Shown piece after piece: positions 4,374-12,532 of a stretch of 64,000 nucleotides of DNA (the first letter of the stretch is position 1; every line of letters starts with the position of its first letter). The position numbers and the translations under genes are program-made. The notes beneath the pieces are model-generated. The model was not told the origin of the DNA, searched no databases, and worked only from the letters and a program-made list of their open reading frames with translations. Source of the DNA: Chitinophagales bacterium. GTDB lineage: Bacteria > Bacteroidota > Bacteroidia > Chitinophagales > UBA10324. The stretch is taken from the NCBI GenBank assembly GCA_013816805.1, contig JACDDS010000009.1:1-64000 (forward strand), read 5' to 3'.

Positions 4374-5927
4374 TTATTTCGTCTTCTCTTTTATCTGCTT
4401 CACTGCATACAGTATTTCTTCTTCCATCACCATAATACGATCCATCAACACATCCGGTTGCTCATATTTCATGGGTTTATGCTCAACAGGTTTGTAGCGA
4501 GAAATACTGAGGTCATATTTGTTCTTGCGTATCTCATCAGCATCAACAATCACCAAGCGCTTGTCATCCCGAACTTGTTTCGGGATCTCCTTCGATTTAG
4601 TAGATGCTGAAACAAGTTCAGCATACCGCGAGACGATTGAAGGAATATCATTGGCTTCCGTCTTCTGCCGTTTATCGTCGAGTGAGAAACCATCGGCTTG
4701 CATGTCGTAAAACCAAACGGTGTCTGTTACGCCTCCTTTGGTGAAGAGCAGCACTGCCGTGCTCACGCCTGCATACGGTTTGAACACACCGCTCGGCATG
4801 GAGATGATTCCATCGAGGCGACATTTGTCCATCAGAATTTTACGCGCATCTACGTGCGCATTGCTGGAGCCGAAGAGCACACCATCGGGAACAATCACGG
4901 CAGCTCTTCCGCCGGTGACGAGTAAATCATAAATCAATTCCACATACAGCAACTCTGTTTTCTTCGTCTTCACATTGAAGCGCGTGTTCACATCGCTGGC
5001 ATCAATGCTTCCTTTGAACGGAGGATTGGCAAGGACCACATCATACAATCCTTTTTCATTAAATTGCTTGCTCAGCGTATCGGTATAGCGGAAATTCGGA
5101 TTGTCCACGCCGTGCAACATCAGGTTCATCGCTCCCATGCGCACCATCGTGGTATCAAAATCATAGCCGCTGATGGCATGACTCTTCAGAAACTCATGCA
5201 GTTTTTTATTCGCAATCTTGTCGCCAATAAGGTTGTGCGCTTTGCCTTCTTCATCGTAGGTGAGCACATCAGCGCTCGTATTCATTTCGAGGATGCGTTC
5301 ATAGGCAGACACTAAGAAACCGGCTGTGCCCGCCGCAGGATCGCAAATGCGTTCTCCTATTTTCGGGTCAATCAGTTTCACCATCATGCGGATGATGTGA
5401 CGCGGTGTGCGGAACTGTCCGTTCTTGCCTGCGGTGGTGAGCTGCATGAGCAGGTATTCGTACAGGTCGCCCTGCACATCAATGTTCTGCTCGCTGATGT
5501 GCATGTCGTCAATGATCTTCACGGCTTCCTGCAACAGCGAAGCGCGCGGAATCACAAACACTGCATCCTGCATGTGCTGGGTGAATGAACTGGTTTCACT
5601 GCCGAGGTTGCGTAGAAAATCAAACACCACATCGCGCACATGCCTCAGCATTTCTTCGCCGGGCAATTGACTCCAGTAACTCCAACGGCATTTCGCCCCT
5701 AAATCCCCTGAAGGGGACTTTCCATTCTGTATCTTAAAAACACTATTGAACGGAGTGCTCCTCCGCTTCGCACTCGCTGCATTTGCATTGTCTCTGTCTT
5801 CGAGGCGCTTGAGGAAAATCAGGTAGCTCATCTGCTCAATCGCCGTAAGCGGATTGCTGATGCCTCCGCTCCAGAATTTATCCCAGAGTGAATCTACTTG
5901 TGAGCGGAGTTGTGGGGAGGTGAGCAT
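4374..5927 (-). CDS. hsdM: Type I restriction-modification methyltransferase subunit M
   Basis: HsdM is the N6-adenine methyltransferase of the type I complex. The 517-residue protein shows the N-terminal helical domain (SLWDKFWSGGISNPLTAIEQ), the SAM-binding motif DPAAGTAGFL near residue 195 and the catalytic NPPF near residue 301. Two segments do not look like the family: residues about 64-80 (FKIQNGKSPSGDLGA) and about 433-454 (AELVSASTKSKEIPKQVRDD). Both are encoded by palindromic repeats inserted without breaking the frame. Both lie outside the catalytic motifs, so the enzyme may still work. The gene follows the large NTPase gene by 80 nt and precedes the HTH/ImmA gene. Confidence 0.93.
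   Translation of the reverse strand: MLTSPQLRSQVDSLWDKFWSGGISNPLTAIEQMSYLIFLKRLEDRDNANAASAKRRSTPFNSVFKIQNGKSPSGDLGAKCRWSYWSQLPGEEMLRHVRDVVFDFLRNLGSETSSFTQHMQDAVFVIPRASLLQEAVKIIDDMHISEQNIDVQGDLYEYLLMQLTTAGKNGQFRTPRHIIRMMVKLIDPKIGERICDPAAGTAGFLVSAYERILEMNTSADVLTYDEEGKAHNLIGDKIANKKLHEFLKSHAISGYDFDTTMVRMGAMNLMLHGVDNPNFRYTDTLSKQFNEKGLYDVVLANPPFKGSIDASDVNTRFNVKTKKTELLYVELIYDLLVTGGRAAVIVPDGVLFGSSNAHVDARKILMDKCRLDGIISMPSGVFKPYAGVSTAVLLFTKGGVTDTVWFYDMQADGFSLDDKRQKTEANDIPSIVSRYAELVSASTKSKEIPKQVRDDKRLVIVDADEIRKNKYDLSISRYKPVEHKPMKYEQPDVLMDRIMVMEEEILYAVKQIKEKTK
4566..4624. repeat. Double palindromic repeat element inserted in frame in hsdM
   Basis: Two stem-loops lie side by side. ATCCCGAA/TTCGGGAT (4566-4573 / 4579-4586) has loop CTTGT, and ATGCTGAA/TTCAGCAT (4604-4611 / 4617-4624) has loop ACAAG. 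The two loops are complementary, and the cores GAACTTGTTTC and GAAACAAGTTC are exact inverted copies. I recall this kind of unit as a dispersed repeat in Bacteroidota genomes, normally intergenic. Here it adds about 20 codons to hsdM and keeps the frame. Confidence 0.75.
5687..5730. repeat. Second palindromic repeat in frame in hsdM
   Basis: The core TCCCCT/AGGGGA (5704-5709 / 5712-5717) sits inside the phrase CCCCTAAATCCCCTGAAGGG, a repeat type I associate with Bacteroidota intergenic DNA. It encodes about 15 residues near position 70 of HsdM that interrupt the normal family sequence before CRWSYW. This is a different element from the one at 4566-4624. Confidence 0.55.
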
Positions 5928-6007: not shown

Positions 6008-9000
6008 TCAAACTGTTGGCTTGTCTTTTTTCTGTGTTGATGTTGCATCAATTCTTCTTTGCTTACTCATAGGAATTTCAAGGAAGGATAGGATGCGTTG
6101 TTTGTTTTCTACGCTTGTCGGGAAAAGATAAAGGTAGTTTATAACCATGCGTTTCATTATCTGTAATGGCAATGGATATTTTGTAAAATCATCTTTCAAG
6201 TTTCTCATTTCGGAATTTGGAAAACTTTTGAAGTAGTCTAACTTGATCGAGAAGTCAATCAATTTTGCTGAATTGTAATTATTCTTATGCAAGACTTCTT
6301 CATAACTGTTTTCAAGGTTTTGTGTTCCCAAAGAATCGGAAACCTTTTTGATAAAGTTGTAAGAGATTTGATTGCAGATGCCGAATAAAATTTTCCGGGA
6401 AACACCTTCAATTTTGTCCTTGTCGTGAATATGTTTTTCGTCAATGAGGTTCACGATTTGATTAACAAAAAAGTCGGTATTATTCTCAATGACAGTGAAA
6501 AAAATATTGAGTGTTCGCAACCCAACTAAGTATGCTTCTTCAACTAAGTCAATGATGACGGGGTTCGTCATTTTTCCGTAATTATTTTTCAGAATTTGTC
6601 CCAAGACTTCGATTGTTTTGAAGGCTGAATTGAGTTGCGACACAATATCAAGTTCAGAAATGTCCTCATCTAAATCTGCAACTTGAGAGAGGTCTTTCTG
6701 AATTTCCTTTAGTTCCTCTTTGTCTTGTTCATCATTTTGTTTGTTTACTTCCTCTCTGTGTTCTTCAATGGATTGGGATTCAAATACCAGTTGCGGAAGT
6801 TTGTCTGCAAGTTTATTGATTGCCTGTGTATCGTCTTGCAGTTTACAAGGTGAAAGCTCATGGAATAATTCCTTGGCATTTTTCAAAATCTCGGTGAGCA
6901 AAAATTTGTCTTTAGAGTGGTGTGTCAAGAACAACAAAACATTTGCAAACTCTGTTCTGTAAATTCTTTTGCAAAGGGCTGAAATAGTTTTTCTAGTTTC
7001 TTCTACGTCAATACTGTCAGCTAGATGTTTTGAAACAAAGAAGTAATAAATGTAGAGGTATTTGAATTCATACACGTCTACATACACTTCCATAATGTTT
7101 GCCGTGCACAAGTTCCTGAGAATCTCGTCAAGGTTTGGAGTGATAGTAAATAATTTTCTGTATTCAACATCAAATTTTTTCAGTTCAGCATAATCAATTG
7201 AACGAATTTTATTTTTAAAAAACCAATAGGATAACTCACTCAGATAGTTGTTGTAGCTTGTGATTTCATCCTGACTCTTTAATGAATTGCCAAATGCCTT
7301 TGAAATTAAGAATTGATAGTAATGTCCGAATGTGCTTGCAGTAAGGTCAGCAGGATTTCCTAATTCTATCGCCTGTAGAATTGTCAATAGAAAAATCGGG
7401 TAATTAGGAACAAGATTTTTTCCGGTTACAGTCCTGATAATTATTTCTGCCTGATTCAGTTTGTTTATCCGTTCTTCATCCGTAATTGTTTCCAGTAATC
7501 CAAGTGTAATCCATTTGTTTATGAGCTTACTTTTTAGAACATGACTGAATTCACGGATTTCATAAACTCCGAAAGATGAAAACAAATCTTCATTAACTGC
7601 TTCATCAGTTATTATGTCCTCAATGGACATAAGTTCATTTCCGGAAATAATAAGGTTTGGAAAATTCTTTATTAAGTTTGAAAGCAATCTTCCTTTGTAT
7701 TTTGCATTGATGTTTACTTTATCAAAGTCGTCAATGATGATGACAAGTTTTGTTCTATCAAGTTGAACGAAATCTTCTTTCTCAGTAGTAGTATACTGAT
7801 TGAAAAAATGTTGAAGTGCGATTTTATTAAAGTCGTTAATGATTGTTGTTTTCAATCGGTGCCCGTCAATCAGAACAGGAACAAAACCCTTGGAGTGTAA
7901 ATGAGAAAAAGTAACTTTCAGTAAAGAAGATTTCCCGATGTTTTCAGCCCCGCTTAAAAGCAAGCGAATATCCTTGCTCAAAGATTTGATTAAGGTTTCA
8001 GAATCAATGGTAGTGACTGTAACTTCTTTTTCACTGTCGGCTGTATAGTCAATTACTTCAAGTCGTGGGAACGTGAAAATGTCAGAAAGCTTTATTTGAA
8101 CTCTTGGGTGTGCGAAGTTTGCACCCGCATCATTTAGGGTAACAAAAAATTCTTTTTTCAACTCGTAAGTGTTTTTGATTTTTAAAACACCTCTTTCGTA
8201 TGAAGTCCATGCATCAGAAGATTCGTTAGCGTATTTATCTCCGTGCCATTTGTAATTGCTAATTTGAAATTTGTTTGTCTTTAAGTCAAAGTTCACAAGA
8301 TTGAAACCGCTATGTTTGGGTTCTCCGGTTTCCTGTAACACATCGCCTTCCACATTATAGATGATGTTGTCTTCCAAATCTGAGATTGCTGATTTGGTAT
8401 GTTCGTGTTCATGTCCTGTGAAATAAAAGTCAGAAGTTTTTTCAATGTGGAACTTGAACTCTTTTCTGTTTTCAGGTTTGAGCCAATGCAGAGGATGATG
8501 AAAGCAAGTGATAAACAAGTCAGCTTTTTCTTTGAAAAGCTCTTCGTCAAAACCTCCGATGGGAAAGACCATTTTACCCGGTAGTTCGTGTCGCTGTGAG
8601 ATATAGGCGGTGTTGTAGCAATAAATGATAATTGTTTTTTCAACTGTAGTGAATTTGAAAATGTTCAACAACTTACTTGAGTGAATCTTGTTGTCGCTTG
8701 AAGTTACTTGGTCGGCAAACTCAAAATAATTTTCCTGTGCTCGTGTTAAAATATCAATCACACTTTCGTCAATGGACTCCTCACCCGTTTGATGAATAAG
8801 TTTGATTAATCCCTCTCTTGATTTGTTGTCTTGTTCAGGTAAGACACAATCATGATTGCCGGGCAGAGGAATGATGTTAATTGGTTTAGTGGAATATTTT
8901 TCTAATGAGGATCTGACTCTGCCTAAGAAGTCAGAAGCTATCTTAAATTCTTCTTTACTTGCTGTGTTTGTTAAGTCCCCTGAGATTGTCAGGAAAACCA

Positions 9001-9118
9001 ACTGTGAATCTTTGCAATTATTTGAAAGAGCAGAAACAAGTTGTTGCTCCTTTTCTAAAAGAGAATTATCGTCTTTTGTAAAGTGAATATCGGACAGTTG
9101 TATGAATAAAATATTCAT
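6008..9118 (-). CDS. Metallophosphoesterase fused to a STAND-like P-loop NTPase (putative antiphage effector)
   Basis: The 1,036-residue protein has three parts. Residues 1-250 are a calcineurin-like phosphoesterase with every metal motif present: DIH at 10-12, GDLTN at 47-51, GNHDC at 87-91, HHPLHW at 207-212, GHEHEH at 235-240. After a linker comes a P-loop NTPase with Walker A GAENIGKSSLLK (about 386-397) and Walker B LVIIIDDFDKV (about 457-467), followed by helical regions. A charged coiled-coil-like stretch (about 785-830) leads into a helical C-terminus. Nuclease, phosphatase or other effector domains fused to STAND NTPases with a sensor C-terminus are the plan of Avs-type defence proteins. 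The gene sits between hsdR/GxxExxY and hsdM and looks AT-richer than either. Antiphage function and substrate are inference. Confidence 0.8.
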   Translation of the reverse strand: MNILFIQLSDIHFTKDDNSLLEKEQQLVSALSNNCKDSQLVFLTISGDLTNTASKEEFKIASDFLGRVRSSLEKYSTKPINIIPLPGNHDCVLPEQDNKSREGLIKLIHQTGEESIDESVIDILTRAQENYFEFADQVTSSDNKIHSSKLLNIFKFTTVEKTIIIYCYNTAYISQRHELPGKMVFPIGGFDEELFKEKADLFITCFHHPLHWLKPENRKEFKFHIEKTSDFYFTGHEHEHTKSAISDLEDNIIYNVEGDVLQETGEPKHSGFNLVNFDLKTNKFQISNYKWHGDKYANESSDAWTSYERGVLKIKNTYELKKEFFVTLNDAGANFAHPRVQIKLSDIFTFPRLEVIDYTADSEKEVTVTTIDSETLIKSLSKDIRLLLSGAENIGKSSLLKVTFSHLHSKGFVPVLIDGHRLKTTIINDFNKIALQHFFNQYTTTEKEDFVQLDRTKLVIIIDDFDKVNINAKYKGRLLSNLIKNFPNLIISGNELMSIEDIITDEAVNEDLFSSFGVYEIREFSHVLKSKLINKWITLGLLETITDEERINKLNQAEIIIRTVTGKNLVPNYPIFLLTILQAIELGNPADLTASTFGHYYQFLISKAFGNSLKSQDEITSYNNYLSELSYWFFKNKIRSIDYAELKKFDVEYRKLFTITPNLDEILRNLCTANIMEVYVDVYEFKYLYIYYFFVSKHLADSIDVEETRKTISALCKRIYRTEFANVLLFLTHHSKDKFLLTEILKNAKELFHELSPCKLQDDTQAINKLADKLPQLVFESQSIEEHREEVNKQNDEQDKEELKEIQKDLSQVADLDEDISELDIVSQLNSAFKTIEVLGQILKNNYGKMTNPVIIDLVEEAYLVGLRTLNIFFTVIENNTDFFVNQIVNLIDEKHIHDKDKIEGVSRKILFGICNQISYNFIKKVSDSLGTQNLENSYEEVLHKNNYNSAKLIDFSIKLDYFKSFPNSEMRNLKDDFTKYPLPLQIMKRMVINYLYLFPTSVENKQRILSFLEIPMSKQRRIDATSTQKKDKPTV

Positions 9119-9185
9119 TGCACTAAGGGTTTAAATTGTCTTTTTAAAGGTAGTATATAAGGACGCACCCATATTTCGAAAGCTT

Positions 9186-9288
9186 TTATGCTACAAGTCT
9201 TTTCGTCAACTCAATAATTTCCTTCACATCATCATTGGTAAAAAGTTTCTCCACTGCATTCATCCCGAAGTTTGAGAAAGGGGTGTCA
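9186..9288 (-). pseudogene. Orphan duplicate of the hsdR 3' end
   Basis: The minus-strand frame reads PFSNFGMNAVEKLF...EIIELTKRLVA then stop. It repeats, with about ten substitutions over 32 codons, the last residues of the intact hsdR upstream (PFSNFGINAVDRLF...EIMELTKRLVA). Similarity is also visible in the DNA. Nothing of the rest of hsdR is present, and the frame in front of it is not hsdR-like. It lies downstream of the GxxExxY gene, which is thus bracketed by two hsdR ends. Confidence 0.75.
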
Positions 9289-9318
9289 GAACTGTGATGT
9301 ATATGATTGATGTGATGT

Positions 9319-9729
9319 TCATGATGCCGCTGTAGCCGGTTTGAACTTCTTATTCTCCAGTCGGTGAAACTCAAGCTTCACATTTCCAAAATTGATGAGC
9401 AACCCGATTTGAAGATTATATGCCTCCAGATAATTGATTGCCTGCGCGAGATTCACCGAATCCAACACCGTGATGGCTTTCAACTCAACACTCACCACTC
9501 CTTCCACAAGGAAATCAACTCGGCGCGTTCCTATCTGAATGTCTTTGTAAAAGATTGACATTTCATACTCTCTTGAAAATTCAATTCCCTGCAAATTCAT
9601 TTCGTAAGCGAGCGCCCGTTGATAGATGACTTCCTGAAATCCGTTACCAAGAGCATTGTGTACTTCCATCGCACATCCAATGATTTTGCCTGTCAGCTCC
9701 GAGTGTTTGTATTCGTTTTTTGTTATCAT
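9319..9729 (-). CDS. GxxExxY family protein (PD-(D/E)XK nuclease fold)
   Basis: The 136-residue protein carries the family signature: GNGFQEVIYQRAL near residues 28-40, followed by RRVDFLVEGVVSVELKAI, which matches the D...ExK core of the PD-(D/E)XK fold. Members are short (about 120-140 residues), common in Bacteroidota and environmental genomes, and of unknown biological role. The gene begins 40 nt after the hsdR stop codon. Its location, between the true hsdR end and an orphan hsdR end, suggests it arrived by an insertion or recombination event at that gene boundary. Confidence 0.88.
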   Translation of the reverse strand: MITKNEYKHSELTGKIIGCAMEVHNALGNGFQEVIYQRALAYEMNLQGIEFSREYEMSIFYKDIQIGTRRVDFLVEGVVSVELKAITVLDSVNLAQAINYLEAYNLQIGLLINFGNVKLEFHRLENKKFKPATAAS

Positions 9730-9769: not shown

Positions 9770-12532
9770 TCAAGCAACCAATCTTTTCGTCAACTCCATT
9801 ATTTCATTCACATCTTCAACAGTAAATAATCTATCAACTGCGTTGATGCCAAAGTTAGAGAACGGCGCATTGTAGAGATCATCCAATTCCAGTTTTCGTG
9901 TTTGCAGAAACACACTCTGCACCGTGCGCAAAAATTTTGTCTGGTCGGCATTGTAATGATGTTCGAGAATGAAGGCATCAAATGCTTTGCGTACAATCTG
10001 CTCGTACGTGGGTAATGTTTCCAGCTTTAGCAAATGCTTTAAGAAATCCACCAAGCTTCCTACGCGCACGCCAAATGCTTTCAGCATGTTGTCATCGGTG
10101 AGATCGAGATCATCGGTGCTGAGTTCTGTTTCCAGTGTTTGCTCCAGTGCAATCAGGTCATCGAGTTTTACCTCTTCACCTTTTTTCAATCGCTGAATAG
10201 TCGGGTGCTGCTGTGCGAGCTGCTCAATCTTTTCTTCAATGCGCCGGCGGTATTCTTCCACCATCACTTTCTGTCCTTCCTTCTTGACAATAACCCATTT
10301 GCGCGAGTCAATGATGTCATCCAATCCGAGTTCAATGATCAAGCTTCTCTTTTCGCGCTTGTATTTCATCAATGGCGCAAGAGCGGTTTTTGCTTCATCA
10401 ATATTTTTCAACGTCGGGCGCTCCCAAAACTTAGTAGAGAGAATTGCTTCTTTGTAAGCAATTCTTTCTTTCACTTGCTGCAAATTGGAAGGAAGCAGAT
10501 CAACATCTTCACGGATGGAGTTAATGATAGCTGCTGCATCTTTCTGTTGTAACAATGCAAGACCAGCACGTTCCATTTTAGAAGTGAAGAATGCTTCGGC
10601 GAGATTTACTCCGGTAACAAATCGCAGCAGCGGCGCCACTTTCATTCGGAGGAATTCAATCTTCTGTGAGTTAATGTAATTCCAGAAATCATCATTCCAT
10701 GCTTCGCGCACATCTTTCAAATGTTTTTTCACCGTGAAGGAGTCGAGTGGAATCTTTGCAATGTCAACGCGGAGTTCCTGCACGATGTATTTAAAATCCT
10801 CACCGCCTTGATCACCGATTAAAATGTTCAGCTTGTTCAGGCGGCTGTTGAAGATAGTAACAAGAACAGGAATTTGCGCTGTGGTCTTGTCATCCTTCGG
10901 CATCATGTTGAAGTGCTCGAAGTTTTCCCAGAAGTCAACGATGAGAAAATTGTCTTTGCCGTTGTCGGGTAGCCACTCCAGGTGTCTGCACGCTTCAAAA
11001 CTTCGCGTGCCTCTGCCGATCATCTGCCAGAATTTGATTTGCGAATTCACCGGCTTCATGAATGCAAGGTTCATCACTTCGGGAATATCCACGCCGGTGT
11101 CGAGCATGTCAACAGAAATAGCGATGCGCGGGAAATCCTGTTTCTTGAATTGATCGAGTAAATCTTTTGCGCGTTCTGTTTTGGAATCAATCACGCGGGC
11201 AAGCAATCCTTTGTGCTCCGGGTACATGTCATTGAATGCTTCCTGCAAGCGCATCGCATGCTTGTGCGTGACGGCAAACACAATTGTCTTCGCAGGCAAT
11301 TGTCCGCTTGCATCTTTGTAACACACATCCATGAATTCTTCCCACTGCCGAATCAGTGTGTCGTGATTCGTTACTTTCTTTTCGAGATCGGTTCCTTCGA
11401 AGTTGATGTCTTCAGGATCAATGCCGCGCTCTCGCAATGACTCCTGATCTTCTTCACTCAAATCAATTCCGCGAATTCCTTTGCGCTGAAATTTTGTTTG
11501 CGCCGCATACACATTGTAATCTGCGAGGTATCCGTCTTTCACCGCCTTGTCATAGGTGTACAGGAATGTCGGCATGGGTCCGTCACACTCGAAGAAGCGA
11601 AACGTGTCGCGGTCAATGAAGTTGGCGGGTGTTGCAGTGAGTCCGATCTGCACGGCATCGAAATAGGCAAGCACATCGGTGAACTTGTTGTAGATGCTGC
11701 GATGACATTCATCGGAGATGATGAGATCAAAATCTGCGGGAGAAAATTTTTCATAGCACAACTCCAGTGTTTGCAGGGTGCTTACATACACGCGCGCATT
11801 GCGGTCAATGTTGTAGGTGTAAATGCGGGCACGCGCTTCATTCGGCAGATGCACTTTGAATCCTTCACTCAATGCCTGCTCTACCAAACTATCGCGATCA
11901 GCGAGGAACAAAACTTTCTGTGCTTGTCGAGCGCGAAGAAAAACATCAATCAATGCCATGATGGTCCTGGTCTTTCCTGTACCCGTCGCCATCACCAATA
12001 ATGCTTTTCTCTTTTTTCTTTTCTTAATCGTTTCACCGATTCTTCGAATTGCTTCTACCTGGTATGAACGATTTACAATAGAATCTTTGATGGTGATTTC
12101 ATTGAGCGGAAGTTTATTTTGCTCTAGGAAGAGAAGGCGCTCTAAATTTTCTCTCGTAAAAAATCCGGCGACGAATCTTTCGGGATGTGTTTCAGAATCC
12201 CAGAACCAAATGTCTTCACCGTTCGTCATGAACGCAAATGGTCGGAAGGTTTGTTTTGCTGCGATCTTCGTTACATACTGCAGCACTTGTTCTTTTCCTA
12301 CACGCGCATCACGGCGTGTGTTTTTCGCTTCAATCACTCCAAGCACTTCTCCATTCGCCCGGAACAAACAGTAATCGGTCACACCATTTATTGGAGAAGC
12401 ATCATAACCTTCAACAGGGACTTCGAAACTTATTTGAGTTCGGTCAGCAAGATTCCATTTCGCCTTTTTTAATTGCGGGTCAATGAGGTTGTAGCGAACC
12501 TCTGCTTCGTTGAGCTGTGAAAAGTCAATCAT
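9770..12532 (-). CDS. hsdR: Type I restriction enzyme subunit R (translocase/nuclease)
   Basis: HsdR translocates DNA and cuts far from the recognition site. The 920-residue protein shows the N-terminal PD-(D/E)XK nuclease (DYCLF then GVIEAKNT, near residues 50-72), then a superfamily 2 helicase: Walker A MATGTGKTRT near 180, DECH near 273, LTATPANF near 298, and the distal motif QMIGRGTR near 505. A helical C-terminal part of the EcoEI/EcoAI type follows and ends in ELTKRLVA. It is the first gene of the minus-strand operon. Length and motif set are complete, so it is probably active. Confidence 0.95.
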   Translation of the reverse strand: MIDFSQLNEAEVRYNLIDPQLKKAKWNLADRTQISFEVPVEGYDASPINGVTDYCLFRANGEVLGVIEAKNTRRDARVGKEQVLQYVTKIAAKQTFRPFAFMTNGEDIWFWDSETHPERFVAGFFTRENLERLLFLEQNKLPLNEITIKDSIVNRSYQVEAIRRIGETIKKRKKRKALLVMATGTGKTRTIMALIDVFLRARQAQKVLFLADRDSLVEQALSEGFKVHLPNEARARIYTYNIDRNARVYVSTLQTLELCYEKFSPADFDLIISDECHRSIYNKFTDVLAYFDAVQIGLTATPANFIDRDTFRFFECDGPMPTFLYTYDKAVKDGYLADYNVYAAQTKFQRKGIRGIDLSEEDQESLRERGIDPEDINFEGTDLEKKVTNHDTLIRQWEEFMDVCYKDASGQLPAKTIVFAVTHKHAMRLQEAFNDMYPEHKGLLARVIDSKTERAKDLLDQFKKQDFPRIAISVDMLDTGVDIPEVMNLAFMKPVNSQIKFWQMIGRGTRSFEACRHLEWLPDNGKDNFLIVDFWENFEHFNMMPKDDKTTAQIPVLVTIFNSRLNKLNILIGDQGGEDFKYIVQELRVDIAKIPLDSFTVKKHLKDVREAWNDDFWNYINSQKIEFLRMKVAPLLRFVTGVNLAEAFFTSKMERAGLALLQQKDAAAIINSIREDVDLLPSNLQQVKERIAYKEAILSTKFWERPTLKNIDEAKTALAPLMKYKREKRSLIIELGLDDIIDSRKWVIVKKEGQKVMVEEYRRRIEEKIEQLAQQHPTIQRLKKGEEVKLDDLIALEQTLETELSTDDLDLTDDNMLKAFGVRVGSLVDFLKHLLKLETLPTYEQIVRKAFDAFILEHHYNADQTKFLRTVQSVFLQTRKLELDDLYNAPFSNFGINAVDRLFTVEDVNEIMELTKRLVA

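Follow-up and report, generated by a model that had tools for sequence, protein, structure and literature searches.

A probable CGTC-type REP heterodimer in frame in the linker of a type I methyltransferase gene

The hsdM gene and its palindrome pair

The window (i.e., the whole stretch of 64,000 nucleotides that was analyzed) comes from a Chitinophagales bacterium and carries an hsdM gene on the minus strand (4374-5927). The gene is intact and encodes a type I DNA methyltransferase subunit of 517 amino acids, which contains HsdM_N (residues 6-138) and N6_Mtase (residues 147-480) domains and has HsdM subunits as its best structural matches. In the operon, hsdM is followed by an ImmA/IrrE-HTH gene, a DUF4411 gene and hsdS.

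Several other features of the surrounding island were observed. Diverged duplicates of the 3' ends of hsdS and hsdR are located at 465-512 and 9190-9281 (83% and 77%, respectively; source ends at 1417-1464 and 9774-9865). They probably represent scars left by another type I system, which suggests that the island has turned over. Between hsdM and hsdR (6008-9729) are two possible additional defence genes, one for a metallophosphatase and nSTAND NTPase protein of 1036 aa and the other for a PDDEXK_3 protein. The region from hsdS to its scar also holds a 5'-3' exonuclease-type gene of opposite orientation (573-1406; PF02739, PF01367).

The first-pass annotation of this DNA reported two hairpins with 8-bp stems and the loops CTTGT and ACAAG inside hsdM at 4566-4624, and both are present exactly as described. 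Arm 1 (4566-4586, plus strand) reads ATCCCGAA-CTTGT-TTCGGGAT and has an 8-bp stem and a 5-nt loop. Arm 2 (4604-4624) is placed head-to-head with arm 1 and reads ATGCTGAA-CTTGT-TTCAGCAT on the minus strand; on the plus strand it is ATGCTGAA-ACAAG-TTCAGCAT, again with an 8-bp stem and a 5-nt loop. The complete plus-strand readings are ATCCCGAACTTGTTTCGGGAT (4566-4586) and ATGCTGAAACAAGTTCAGCAT (4604-4624). Arm 1 carries a TGTC tag, a variant of the CGTC tag, at its outer end (4562-4565, plus strand), and the outer tag of arm 2 is degenerate (CGGT where NGTC is expected). The arms are separated by a 17-nt spacer without strand (4587-4603), which in the hsdM copy has GTAG and GGAG at the ends adjoining the arms. 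Since the two loops are reverse-complementary, the pair can fold either as two hairpins or as a single long hairpin. No target duplication was seen by eye at the dimer. When the window was resampled 40 times with a Markov model, palindrome pairs at most 60 nt apart arose by chance at 0.05 per 64 kb, and none with complementary loops arose.

The dimer encodes hsdM codons 436-455 (AELVSASTKSKEIPKQVRDD; 4563-4622, minus strand), which are located in the linker that joins the methyltransferase core to the C-terminal region. The element had been thought to add about 20 codons without a stop. The frame is indeed open across it, but the net lengthening is only ~6-14 residues: the linker between the DDKR and YDLS motifs has 58 residues in the window HsdM versus 45-53 in most short-linker homologues. 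As this gain is smaller than the element, the linker was either partly replaced or eroded by the element, or was short in the ancestor. The comparison drew on 80 hsdM loci, each species being represented by one genome, plus another 29 from the window's order; some alignments fell short of the linker, and some linkers were not delimitable automatically. None of the aligned HsdM homologues from these loci, up to ~72% identical, contains the dimer peptide, in agreement with the idea that the segment is an insert. Because the closest homologue found is only ~72% identical, a clean empty site at the DNA level is lacking. In plasmid and phage collections, the 21-residue peptide had no match at E<=1, which is weak evidence given such a very short query.

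The first-pass annotation also proposed that a site between the catalytic motifs and the C-terminus may tolerate an insertion, and structure prediction favors this view. In an AlphaFold model based on 47 aligned homologues (mean pLDDT 84.6), residues 441-450 form a low-confidence linker with a pLDDT of 55. Weak regions include 66-73, 441-450, ~141-170 and 481-490, among others, and the first two coincide with two palindrome sites of HsdM. The second site is a candidate palindromic insert, AAAGTCCCCTTCAGGGGATTTAGGGG (5696-5721, minus strand), around KSPSGDLGA in an N-terminal loop that is ~10 residues shorter in many HsdM homologues. A search of 12 other genomes found no further copy of this palindrome, which occurs once in its own genome. 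The low predicted order at both sites is consistent with tolerance of insertions in flexible loops.

Repeat class and copies in other genes and genomes

We searched for similar repeats with a monomer pattern and used the reversed pattern as a control. There were 71 matches (control, 1) in G003, an Ignavibacteria metagenome-assembled genome that also carries the hsdM locus L015, and 153 (control, 2) in G018, a genome that belongs to the window's family. For the genome that contains the window, the counts were 16 matches at <=1 mismatch and none on the control. Heterodimers with the same stem types, the same loop and the 17-nt spacer recur in G003 and G018, where many dimers share this spacer. 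The dimers are head-to-head, and their two stems usually differ: ATGCTG or ATGCCG is combined with ATTCCG, ATCCCG or ATCCTG. We also analyzed 87 distinct monomers, for which the GAA/TTC core and the left tag were the sole selection criteria. Among them, stem pair 3 is G-C in 47, C-G in 19 and T-A in 14, and stem pair 5 is T-A in 51 and C-G in 29; these compositions indicate strong co-variation of the stems.

The features of these repeats match those of the CGTC super-family. Of the terminal tetranucleotides of this super-family (CGTC, TGTC or CCTC), TGTC is found on one of the two arms of the hsdM copy, and CGTC at both ends of the copy at C20 of the same genome. Both ATCCCGAA and ATGCTGAA begin with AT and belong to 8-bp stems with 5-nt loops, within the 8-9 bp and 4-5 nt of the super-family. 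Head-to-head dimers prevail in the super-family, with heterodimers in family 2, and head-to-head heterodimers are formed by the copies in the window, at C20, and in G003 and G018. Copy numbers per genome are high, although the window's own genome has no more than two full dimers of the subtype. The 3-nt tails are mostly CTN and do not match CCA. In the passages of Di Nocera, De Gregorio and Rocco (2013; PMC3733652) drawn on here, a 3-nt CCA tail is a feature of most CGTC families, but not all, and we did not count the CTN tail against membership for this reason. The same passages describe CGTC REP family 2 as having a stem of 8, a loop of 5 and heterodimers. Judged from its sequence, the hsdM element is classified as a CGTC-tagged REP head-to-head heterodimer, of family 2 by stem and loop. 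We also considered, and rejected, an assignment to RAYT-associated GTAG repeats: where the hsdM copy has GTAG and GGAG, other copies have variable CTNN.

Separately, some CGTC-type palindromes or dimers form arrays with a repeat every ~175-420 bp, an unexplained amplification. These arrays are located at G018:C7:108375-110092 and 118040-118852 (L181), at G018:C12:87834-89286 (L179) and, in the window's own genome, at C17:18354-19594 (L199).

By the first-pass annotation, a genome with no other copies, or close HsdM homologues that all carry the residues, would have spoken against its reading. Neither was the case, and one of the additional copies in this genome is likewise in frame within a gene. 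This other full dimer (C20:19854-19915) has a CGTC tag at both ends and the 17-nt spacer, and lies within a gene for an Eco57I/TaqI_C type IIG-like enzyme (a methyltransferase). Three plasmid homologues of this enzyme have a 14-residue gap exactly at the dimer, and a search of viral contigs found no relative of the gene. The single copies that were inspected (the C17 array, C2 and C22) are outside ORFs of at least 150 aa and carry TTCAT, TTTAT or TTTAA loops. Within this genome, a full dimer with CTTGT, CTCGT or CCCGT loops was found only in the two restriction-modification (R-M) genes.

Six copies of the element lie well inside genes of a named family. They occur in the window hsdM, the type IIG-like gene of the same genome and four G003 genes: hsdM (L015), a gene with a Type ISP specificity domain (L214), polyphosphate kinase 1 (L192), where the copy separates the middle domain from the C-terminal one, and HpnE (L211). 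Copies near ORF starts (L187, L190 and L210) were left out of this count as their true start codons are uncertain. R-M genes hold four of the six, but the finding itself led to two of these, which leaves an unbiased count of two in four; the numbers are small. All six copies are read in the hydrophilic frame (HAELVSAS...IPKQVRND), not in the alternative open frame (MLNLFQHL). The Type ISP dimer of G003 (L214, 2609-4093, the same region as L163) is an in-frame CGTC dimer in a gene that neighbors a Y1 transposase gene.

These data bear on the simplest alternative, that the segment is ordinary, fast-evolving linker sequence whose palindromes reflect chance or composition. The HsdM linker does vary in length, from 45 to >80 residues, and the net gain in the window gene is modest. 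However, double palindromes with complementary loops are beyond chance expectation, the same kind of dimer, with co-varying stems, occurs in other genes and genomes, and dispersed copies are found in unrelated genes and intergenic regions. We regard this explanation as extremely unlikely.

Palindromes at HsdM loops in other species

Unrelated palindromes, with different sequences and stem sizes, are present in the HsdM linkers of other species. The L015 linker has a CGTC dimer with other stems. A different palindrome pair is found in L014 and L076 and, in an eroded form, in L251; it has GTAG/CTAC-like ends in L014 and is probably one shared event. The L020 linker contains GTAGGGGCAATTCATGAATTGCCCCTAC, the L066 linker contains ATCCCGGGCGAAGACCCGGGAT and a second palindrome, and C-rich palindromes are present in L019 and L070. 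Inserts of nine loci (L014, L015, L016, L019, L020, L068, L070, L072 and L076) match sequences elsewhere in their own genomes, with the L076 matches confined to the vicinity on its contig; for L013, L017, L066, L082, L085 and L092, own-genome matches were not clearly found. The second HsdM loop (residues ~60-75) has palindromes in the window, L016, L070 and L072.

Another explanation is that the element functions in the operon as an RNA or DNA signal, e.g., a hairpin at which the transcript is paused or cut, so that expression of the genes after hsdM is tuned. The 77-nt stretch folds better than expected (z = -4.2 as DNA and -4.3 as RNA), with none of 200 shuffles equally good, and the RNA strand of the dimer forms one long hairpin of -27.8 kcal/mol. 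REPs as a class are presumed to act on transcripts, according to the passages of PMC3733652 drawn on here. Against such a role, the element is part of a coding region, so the passage of ribosomes would be expected to open the hairpin, it is absent from homologous genes, and the unrelated repeats at the same site have no sequence or stem size in common. A dedicated signal is, in our view, quite improbable.

Palindromes with stems of at least 8 occur at 0.76 per kb in the linker versus 0.18 per kb (p = 4.5e-4, window included; p ~0.001 with the window excluded, palindromes counted). When genes rather than palindromes were counted, the enrichment had p = 0.063, and further homologues from the window's order had no such palindromes in 2.5 kb of delimitable linker. 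These two results leave the comparison only suggestive of the HsdM linker being a landing site, or hot spot, for repeats. Regarding HsdM and palindromic repeats together, no title or abstract in the literature searched described such insertions, which is not proof of novelty. A broader proposal is that the two HsdM loops, and R-M methyltransferases generally, serve as both landing site and vehicle, with independent entries across phyla and R-M transfer seeding new hosts. We put this forward tentatively, as having somewhat less than an even chance of being correct.

Origin of the element and comparison with known repeats

The best match of hsdM within the window's order is 69% identical, and the best matches elsewhere, in Ignavibacteria and related genomes, are ~72% identical. 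Among the sampled genomes of the window's family, no other has this hsdM at E<=1e-100. This distribution would fit horizontal acquisition of the gene; no donor was found among the genomes sampled. Alternatively, the element might have been copied into hsdM within its own genome or recent ancestors, rather than brought in with the gene. REP-type monomers are present in this genome, and G018, from the same family, is rich in dimers. Yet the inspected single copies carry other loops, and dimers of the subtype were found in this genome in R-M genes only, so we consider copying within the genome unlikely. As the single copies are of a different loop type, the hsdM dimer probably arrived with its gene, and we infer that both R-M dimers of this genome were imported with their host genes.

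REPs are usually thought to be mobilized in trans by a single-strand nuclease that recognizes hairpins. At 33 Y1_Tnp loci in nine genomes no flanking dimer was found; the nearest clear dimer is ~950 bp away, within a neighboring gene. A cognate transposase, as a MITE would have, was likewise not found for the dimers at these 33 loci.

Overall, these data make it very probable that a CGTC-type REP heterodimer lies in frame in the hsdM linker, where it is probably tolerated and to which it was probably brought by a horizontally acquired gene. In the proposed sequence of events, the heterodimer, spread by a mobilization process such as cleavage by a hairpin-recognizing single-strand nuclease in trans, would have landed in frame in the flexible linker. 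The insertion may have survived owing to the tolerant loop and the hydrophilic frame, and hsdM would then have carried the dimer in by horizontal transfer from a donor genome rich in the subtype. The dimer is most likely a selfish sequence that persists by being tolerated, and we assign no function to its peptide.

An element of this kind is already known, and the new context is an R-M gene as the in-frame host. In-frame CGTC REPs can now be placed in R-M enzymes of Bacteroidetes- and Ignavibacteria-type genomes, and highly mobile R-M genes could offer REPs with no known transposase a way to reach new genomes. If the linker is a true hot spot, hsdM genes would be natural experiments in insertion tolerance, and empty and filled sites in close strains could reveal how CGTC REPs move.

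Among known systems, the closest is CGTC REP family 2. As far as the passages of PMC3733652 drawn on here describe it, the likeness includes the CGTC/TGTC tag, an 8-bp stem starting with AT, a 5-nt loop, head-to-head heterodimers, the reported in-frame copies in genes (20-30 residues encoded) and the lack of transposase association. The window element differs in its CTN tail, as opposed to the usual CCA, in one degenerate outer tag, and in its host, an R-M methyltransferase, a class absent from these passages.

The first-pass annotation likened the insert to Rickettsia palindromic elements. Like the hsdM element, RPE-1, RPE-4 and RPE-6 are palindromic and in frame in protein genes, and the comparison holds at the super-family level, as the same passages place RPE-4 and RPE-6 among CGTC REPs; this link follows the class given in PMC3733652. 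RPE-6 and RPE-4 belong to CGTC families 1 and 4 whereas the hsdM element is of family 2, and the closest relatives of the hsdM gene are in Ignavibacteria and Bacteroidetes, not Rickettsia.

A third comparison is with REPIN/RAYT systems (GTAG REPs and TnpA-REP). The hsdM-type copies differ from these in being without a flanking RAYT and without a conserved GTAG tag, but resemble them in consisting of paired inverted palindromes that probably spread in trans.
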